From Chromatiaceae bacterium (lineage in GTDB: Bacteria; Pseudomonadota; Gammaproteobacteria; Chromatiales; Chromatiaceae), in assembly GCA_024639005.1 (NCBI GenBank), contig JAHEJD010000015.1, positions 1-48,695 of the forward strand: DNA of 48,695 nucleotides, read 5' to 3'. Of this stretch, positions 1,812 through 48,466 are shown piece by piece; positions within the stretch are counted from its first letter, which is position 1, and each line of letters starts with the position of its first letter. The position numbers and the translations under genes are program-made. The notes under the pieces were generated by a model. The model had not been told where the DNA came from. It did not search any database and saw only the letters and a program-made list of their open reading frames with translations.

Positions 1812-1879
1812 CTGCAAGACTCTCCTCGACTGCGTGGAATCGCATTCTAAGGCTGCGGCAACGAGATGTCAGACACTAG

Positions 1880-2053
1880 CCGCTTATCTCACCGGGTTTC
1901 GTCGCGAGGGCGGCGAGATGCCGCTGCGACGGGGGGCACGCAGTGAAAGACGGTGCCGGCGTAGCCGACACTACGTCAAACCGGCTGTAACGAGTACGCC
2001 CCGACGCAGCGAGCATAACGGCGTCCGCAGCAGGAAGTTGGTTAGATAAGCGG
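1880..2053. repeat. Dispersed inverted-end repeat, full copy A (174 bp)
   Basis: The ends are ccgcttatctcacc (1880-1893) and ggttagataagcgg (2040-2053), complementary at 13 of 14 positions. The interior has no credible gene. It aligns along its whole length, with clear divergence, to 48291-48466, and its ends recur at 20013-20058 and 27436-27493. It lies between the divergent SQR-like and HerA genes. Size, inverted ends and lack of coding capacity resemble a MITE; no target-site duplication is evident. Confidence 0.8.
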
Positions 2054-2131
2054 GCCGAGACCCGGAGATCCTTGGGAAATGACCGGGTTGCCGGTATTCT
2101 TGCCGCACGCAGCTGCAACGAACGGACGCTC

Positions 2132-13561: not shown

Positions 13562-13648
13562 GCCGGGGTGGTGGAATTGGTAGACACAGGGGACTCAAAA
13601 TCCCCCGCTGGCAACAGCTTGTCGGTTCGAGTCCGACCCTCGGTACCA
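13562..13648 (+). tRNA. tRNA-Leu (anticodon CAA)
   Basis: An 87-nt cloverleaf with the long variable arm of class II tRNAs. The acceptor stem pairs gccgggg with cctcggt (G-U pairs at the first and fifth positions), followed by A and an encoded CCA (13646-13648). The anticodon stem-loop is gggga-ctcaaaa-tcccc, giving CAA, which reads UUG. The T arm contains ggttcgagtcc. Integrase and transposase debris lies directly downstream, fitting use of the tRNA 3' end as an attachment site. Confidence 0.95.
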
Positions 13649-20012: not shown

Positions 20013-20058
20013 CGCGGCCTCTCGCCGCCCTCGCAACGAAACGCGGTGAGATAAGCGG
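20013..20058. repeat. Dispersed inverted-end repeat, left-end fragment (copy C)
   Basis: Read on the minus strand from 20058, it begins ccgcttatctcacc and follows the first ~46 bases of copy A with a few mismatches, then similarity stops. Only one end survives, in the gap between the CMD-family gene and the polyferredoxin gene. Confidence 0.7.
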
Positions 20059-20293
20059 ACTGGAAATTCTCTCGACGGACGATATGCGGGCTCGGGTCTT
20101 TTTCGCTGTCGTCGAGACCCGACCTTTTCATCGTGCATGCAGGATCAGACAATCGCAAATCCGCTACACTGATTTCCAACGTCAGCACGATAGCCACCAG
20201 ATCCACCACCAATGAAAAGCACTCTCTCACCGCTGGCCCTGCAGCTCTGCTGCGAACGTCCGGCGACCGCCAACGCACGCGGTTGGGTTAGCC

Positions 20294-27425: not shown

Positions 27426-27435
27426 TTTCCTCAGC

Positions 27436-27493
27436 CCGCTGTCTCATCAACTTCCTGCTGCGGACACCGCTATGCCGCCCTCGCGACGAAGCC
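27436..27493. repeat. Dispersed inverted-end repeat, internally deleted copy D
   Basis: Read on the minus strand, the bases that follow copy A's left terminus (ttcgtcgcgagggcggc) are joined directly to copy A's right end (ccgcagcaggaagtt onward). Most of the interior and the outermost left end are missing. It forms the 3' end of the truncated symporter frame and supplies its stop codon. Confidence 0.7.
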
Positions 27494-28057
27494 GTCGATA
27501 CGCATGATGGCCCCGCCGATGACGTCCAGGTCCTCGATGAAGTTACCCTTTTTCGGCACGCCGATGATTGCCAGGCTGAATAGCACGATTGCCGGGACGA
27601 TACTGCTGGACAGCGAGAAAAACGGGTTGGAGGGGATGTACAGCGCGACCAGGTCGGTCTGCTCCGGATTCTCGACCAGGCTGCTGCTGAAGAAGGTGGC
27701 CGACTCCCAGTCCGGCAGCGTGACCGTGAACGCGACTGTGATAGCGAGCGCGACAACCCAGAACAGCAATACGAAGCGGCCGCGCTGGACCGCAAACACC
27801 CGCATCTCGGGATAGCTCAGCTTGCCGATACCGGCGATCAGCGAGACCAGGATGTACGGCAACACCGTCATCTGCAGCAGCCCGATGAAGATCTTCCCGA
27901 CGATTTCCAGCGGCTTTATCAGTTCGCCGAAGAACAATCCGGCGACTATCCCGAGCCCCAGCGAAATAAAGACCTGCGCCGACAGGCCCATTCTCGGGCC
28001 TTGTTGCGCGGGCGGTTCGACGGCCAGCGCGGCATCGTCGGCGCCCGGCGTGTTCAT
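27470..28057 (-). pseudogene. Dicarboxylate:cation (glutamate-type) symporter, 3' truncated
   Basis: A frame of 195 residues begins at an ATG overlapping the upstream stop (ATGA). It contains helices 1-4 of a DAACS-family Na+/H+:dicarboxylate symporter: GLGIVAGLFFGE, FIGLLQMTVLPYILVSLIAG, and the SLSSSIVPAIVLFSLAIIGV stretch. Full-length members have over 400 residues with substrate-binding hairpins in the C-terminal half, all missing here. The last codons (GFVARAA, stop) come from the repeat copy. It cannot be a working transporter. Confidence 0.8.
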
Positions 28058-48151: not shown

Positions 48152-48290
48152 TATTTGCGCTGTGAAAAGGCTTTGATAACCTGTGGATCGTCTGTGCAAC
48201 GCAGGCGAGAGCGCGGCATGATACGGAACGGACAGGGCCGCCTGAATTACCACCGGGTCGCCGTCGGCGGTGCACGCGGGTGATCCCCAG

Positions 48291-48466
48291 CCTGCATATC
48301 TCACCGTCTTTCGTAATGAGGACGTCGAGACGCCGCTATGGCGGGGTGCACGGAGTGGGAGGTGGTGAAGGCGTAGGCGACACTGCGTTGAACCGCCTGC
48401 AACGAGTACACCCTGTCATGGCGAGGGTATCGGGGGCCGCAGCAGGAAATTGGTGAGATATGCAGG
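48291..48466. repeat. Dispersed inverted-end repeat, full copy B (176 bp)
   Basis: cctgcatatctcacc (48291-48305) is perfectly complementary to ggtgagatatgcagg (48452-48466). The interior aligns with copy A throughout, including cgacactgcgttgaaccg-like and ccgcagcaggaa blocks. It lies between the partial gene at the window edge and the promoter of secreted protein 2. Confidence 0.8.

Follow-up and report, generated by a model that had tools for sequence, protein, structure and literature searches.

What kind of element is the repeat that recurs between the genes of this Chromatiaceae genome, and what moves it? The first-pass annotation of the window, which is the whole 48,695-nucleotide stretch of DNA analysed here, had described two complete and two partial copies of a repeat with inverted ends. 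We are confident that these repeats are a MITE family mobilised in trans by an IS1380-family transposase, as their ends and their CTAG target are common to the insertion sequences (ISs) of that family; both the mobility and the part played by this transposase are inferred from comparison of sequences. What keeps the two arms of each element matched is a separate matter, and it is here that the alternatives have to be weighed.

The copies in the window and in the genome

All four copies are real, and for the complete ones the earlier coordinates were off by 1 bp at most (Table 1). Copy A is 175 bp long, its 5' end being short of one C, and copy B is 176 bp long with perfect 15-bp TIRs. The two align with 76% identity over 182 bp (E=1.2e-31), far above the background to which their likeness might have been put down. 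A covariance model built from 35 copies of the own genome scores them at 185.7 and 199.2 bits, respectively. As for the partial copies, the first is a lone 5' end and the second an internal deletion, scoring 22.9 bits (E=8e-5 within the window). The ends, which had been read as a fixed CC(G/T)C-TATCTCACC, are better described as a covarying CCYG-NNN-ATCTCACC. The family consensus runs from a YTAR target through CCYGNNNATCTCACC to GGTGAGATNNNCRGG and a second YTAR, with typically 176 bp between the targets.

Table 1. Features of the element family in the window, and palindromes with the same ends at other loci
Feature	Position in window, or locus	Strand	Basis or remark
CTAG target, left flank of copy A	1876..1879		sequence; YTAR flank consensus, 33 copies
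Copy A, full-length MITE, CCGCTTATC subfamily, long hairpin	1880..2054	+	sequence, BLAST, covariance model
Right-hand target copy of copy A, decayed (CCGA)	2055..2058		by position; weaker than left flank
Remnant of ~47 nt, from the 5' TIR into the interior, CCAG on outer side	20013..20059	-
Internally deleted derivative without 5' TIR	27435..27493	-	59 bp
CCAG (CTAG-like), left flank of copy B	48287..48290
Copy B, full-length MITE, CCTGCATATC subfamily, long hairpin	48291..48466	+	sequence, BLAST, covariance model
Palindromes of about 254-281 bp	L111, L112, L129		same ends
143 bp palindrome	L113		same ends
120 bp palindromes	L109, L110		same ends
71 bp palindrome	L108		same ends
45 bp palindromes	L121, L123, L131		same ends

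Neither copy A nor copy B contains an ORF of at least 150 aa, and 176 bp is too short for a transposase. The PF13701 transposase is therefore not encoded by the window elements, which are not IS1380 insertion sequences themselves. At the gathering threshold, an Rfam search of the window left the elements unmatched; its sole match was a tRNA, the gene for which lies at 13562-13645 (+).

The host assembly is a 3.2-Mb draft genome in 155 contigs, and a genome-wide search did return further copies. The covariance model finds about 41 near full-length ones (41 loci whose better strand scores 109 bits or more, the 35 training copies included). At E<0.1 it adds as many as 13 derivatives that are shorter or carry deletions; chance may account for the weakest of these matches. 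BLAST gave 43 matches with a 196-bp copy A query and 53 with copy B, some of them opposite-strand self-matches. The TIR pattern, allowing up to 2 mismatches, occurs 94 times per strand, as against 3 and 7 times for a reversed-pattern control. The high genomic density that had been predicted from four copies is thus borne out. Across the genome, identity to copy A ranges from about 75 to 94%, and this wide divergence fits the earlier suggestion of old or repeated activity.

The placement between genes also holds, since in the 35 copies examined any overlap with a predicted gene is 20 bp at most (crude gene calls). At several copies, the CTAG supplies or adjoins the stop codon of the neighbouring gene. 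The deleted derivative in the window overlaps the predicted 3' end of a minus-strand ORF (27470-28057) and appears to supply its last codons and TAG stop (GFVARAA and stop). A role as a convergent terminator was considered and set aside: the gaps were oriented 13 ++, 7 --, 8 convergent and 5 divergent, without clear bias, these being raw counts from crude codon-usage gene calls with no genome-wide baseline.

Target sites and the IS1380-family partner

The target is a 4-bp YTAR, mostly CTAG. In the left flank the inner bases are nearly fixed (A in 32 and G in 30 of 33 copies) and the outer ones more variable. CTAG itself is rare in the window, with 33 occurrences against 171 expected by base composition. 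Target duplications were found: in 9 of 33 copies the same 4-mer stands on the left and on the right, compared with 3.7 by shuffling (p=0.001), and these include the non-palindromic TTAG/TTAG as well as TTAA/TTAA. The outer bases often read CC(AG) or (CT)GG instead of CTAG, so many duplications are imperfect. An insertion without duplication, by an element ending AG...CT, would account for such flanks but fails for the TTAG/TTAG and TTAA/TTAA copies. It was also observed among the 33 copies that the left flank is often CCAG and never CTGG, while the right is often CTGG and never CCAG, the change being confined to the outer T, or to the A that mirrors it; this asymmetry could come from mutation, from mismatch repair of donor/target mismatches or from a looser target. 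Empty sites are present as well. When the flanks of two copies (L004 and L005) are joined, they align without length difference to G003, a congener that lacks the element, and the alignment length fits 176 bp plus a 4-bp duplication; the targets there are too diverged to reveal the original 4-mer.

A transposase with matching ends was found on IS1380-family ISs of G109, G147, G194 and Pseudomonas putida. Of 210 family genomes, 15 contain the exact CTAGCCYGNNNATCTCACC, and the reversed-pattern control gave zero. G109, from a sister genus, has four matches, which are both ends of two 1758-bp spans. Each span carries one 490-codon ORF, of whose product 396 aa match PF13701 (E=9e-129), and both 1.76-kb copies have identical ends, with CTAG followed by CCCGCATATCTCACC. 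Further full ISs were found in G147 and G194, with CTAG on both sides and with unequal left and right ends (CCCGGAAATCTCACC and CCCGGATCGCTCACC in G147). The RefSeq-annotated IS1380 of P. putida pKF715A likewise shows CTAG and CCCGCATTTCTCAC on both sides, that is, the same target and nearly the ends of the MITE. A Rhizobium plasmid locus annotated as IS1380 (L241) is without the TIR plus CTAG; the end motif is hence not universal in the family. A plasmid collection searched with the element itself gave no match.

The own genome also holds PF13701 fragments (best E=5e-63), and no intact IS1380 copy was found there, all being fragmented or cut by contig ends. One fragment, which lies at the start of a contig and shares 64% identity with G109 and 85% with G007, has the end CTAA followed by CCCGCATCGCTCACC; an opposite IS end, CTAG followed by CCTGCATCGCTCACC, lies on another contig. 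The strict MITE end pattern missed the IS ends at PF13701 loci because they read CCYGCATCGSTCACC, and relaxed patterns detected them. At the ends of the broken copies, CC(C/T)GCATCGCTCACC, 2 of 15 positions depart from the MITE, with CG in place of AT, and the MITE resembles the IS no further than the TIR. Two loci with transposase fragments, L101:1-756 (G000:C5) and L104 (G000:C106), lie at the ends of contigs, which suggests that the assembly breaks at repeated IS copies and that the number of autonomous copies may be underestimated.

The same ends also bound other palindromes with unrelated interiors (Table 1), and the window family is part of a larger set of elements, about 45-281 bp long, with common ends. 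In several Gammaproteobacteria MAGs, elements delimited by these 5' and 3' ends measure 68-247 bp; the named records with the element are mostly uncultured Gammaproteobacteria MAGs. Lone ends consisting of YTAR and CCTGAAAATCTCACC, mostly followed by GGCCGGCCA, were noted at L124:2024, L132:1759, L133:1998 and L128:2012. Within 2 kb no opposite end was found for any of them, and they look like the left end of the 254-281 bp elements. Another 460-bp span, L176:335-794 (G211:C222), has CTAG and IS1380-type ends of unequal sequence on both sides; it may be a further MITE or an internally deleted IS.

Taken as a non-autonomous element with inverted ends, as the first-pass annotation had it, the repeat is supported by its copy density, intergenic sites, 4-bp target duplication, empty sites and a transposase with matching ends, and the IS1380 family is well supported as the autonomous partner. 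Its transposase would recognise the ~15-bp ends CCYGNNNATCTCACC of the MITE in trans, excise the element and insert it at a rare 4-bp YTAR, preferably CTAG, duplicating these 4 bp. Going by general knowledge of both families, the chemistry would be a cut-and-paste like that of IS1380/piggyBac. After insertion, the arms remain complementary while their sequence changes; the hairpin of the plus-strand transcript may act as a tolerable or protective UTR structure, and template-switch repair between the arms may assist the matching.

Matched arms and the folded strand

The whole element folds into one long hairpin, and its two ends covary within each element. In the 15-bp TIR helix, where 95.2% of cells are paired, 7 pairs change on both sides; the two-sided changes amount to 35 cells, whereas shuffling yields 9.3 and sliding the partner column no more than 13. 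Interior pairs give 36 against 7.3, the structure being derived from the same alignment. Recognition by the transposase alone does not explain this matching, as the ends of the ISs are free to differ mutually.

The fold is not the same on both strands. The z-score is -7.7 on the plus strand and -3.9 on the other; copy A folds with a dG of -96.1 on the plus and -83.0 on the minus strand, and copy B with -102.8 and -66.1. For all 35 own copies the plus strand is the more stable one (mean -98.3 vs -77.6 kcal/mol), and it folds better in 22 of 23 copies from other genomes, common descent contributing in both cases. Parsimony on the interior tree gave 17 two-base changes from pair to pair, 26 changes to G-U and 9 to A-C. 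The arms are reverse complements, so strand-symmetric mutation predicts parity of G-U and A-C. The 26:9 excess (p=0.006; 21:9, p=0.04 with one pair excluded; p=0.002 with other genomes added; 7:3, not significant, in the other genomes alone) speaks for selection acting on a single strand in its folded form, probably RNA. In our estimate, the chances are about even that the arms are matched by selection for a stable hairpin of the plus-strand transcript, perhaps aided by template-switch repair.

A quite conceivable, if somewhat doubtful, account is that the matching is a mutational by-product, in which template switching (quasipalindrome correction) homogenises the arms without structural selection. 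Many of the 17 inferred two-base changes are transversional (T-A to G-C, A-T to T-A) and impossible via a G-U intermediate, which favours such switching, and E. coli is known to undergo template switching associated with quasipalindromes (PMC7202029). Nevertheless, a strand-symmetric DNA process should leave G-U and A-C equal, and the more stable strand is the same in all 35 own copies, though shared ancestry contributes to this. We lean towards selection on the folded strand, with template-switch homogenisation contributing.

A further alternative is that the host retains the element chiefly for a function as a structured RNA or in transcript processing, in the manner of ERIC or BOX hairpins, its mobility being long extinct or irrelevant. 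The single long hairpin with covariation over its full length, the difference in z-score between the strands and the wobble bias all agree with such a role. It is nonetheless unlikely in view of the 4-bp target duplications and orthologous empty sites, the presence of the same ends on IS1380 ISs, a spread of lengths from 68 up to 247 bp across genomes, the lack of an Rfam match to the window elements and the lack of a clear preference for convergent or codirectional gaps. A combined reading, which we also hold to be rather improbable, takes one folded strand (RNA or single-stranded DNA) as the selected or recognised state, the MITE then being both mobile by a DDE transposase and conserved as a hairpin RNA. 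It is similarly a tentative idea that, under such a state, the transposase would read the conserved CC-G...ATCTCACC positions and no others, leaving the arms to coevolve.

Other routes of mobility fare worse. The IS5 group and IS701 use 4-bp YTAR targets too, and a transposase from such a family could in principle mobilise the element; this is very unlikely, since the exact TIR plus CTAG is found on IS1380-family elements, and the IS701-type transposase (PF13546, DDE_5) was not found in a search of the own genome. Spread as single-stranded hairpins, in the manner of REP/RAYT or attC, is suggested by the palindromic form and covarying arms but is hardly credible, as a 4-bp target duplication and a DDE IS with the same ends are unlike HUH or integron recombination.

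Known systems and significance

The IS1380 family (PF13701; IS1247, ISPme1 and relatives) is familiar mostly as a carrier of resistance genes (ISEcp1) and as a relative of piggyBac. It resembles the window MITE in its CCCG..TCTCACC ends and its 4-bp CTAG/YTAR target; unlike these ISs, the MITE is gene-less and has only the ~15-bp ends in common with them, and its ends match, whereas the left and right ends of IS1380 elements may differ mutually. For IS1247, a length of 1672 bp and a 5-bp duplication are given (PMC3281130).

Palindromes of the ERIC, REP and BOX kinds are also imperfect, intergenic and of high copy number. The spread of REPs is linked to TnpA-REP (RAYT) transposases and proceeds without target duplication, which the window MITE has. 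Bacterial MITEs folding into long stem-loops have been described before (PMC10969869, PMC11578231). Coxiella QMITE1/QMITE2 and other bacterial MITEs (PMC10969869) are likewise short, gene-less and intergenic, with TIRs, direct repeats, tens of copies, stable stem-loop transcripts and truncated derivatives; these have other TIRs and another target, and the window MITE is GC-rich, not AT-rich. MITEPye1 of Paracoccus yeei is also an intergenic MITE with a long stem-loop, but its ends match the IS1182 family and it has 1-3 copies only (PMC11578231). The review of bacterial MITEs does not mention IS1380 (PMC10969869), and our search of the open-access literature found no paper on MITEs with IS1380 ends.

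Beyond the first-pass annotation, the analysis adds the IS1380 family identity, the wider related set and the end-to-end covariation. IS1380 thereby joins the IS families with abundant MITEs. The many covarying copies, furthermore, lend themselves to a question that is seldom settled for the hairpins of bacterial MITEs, namely whether they are kept by RNA selection or arise from template-switch mutation.
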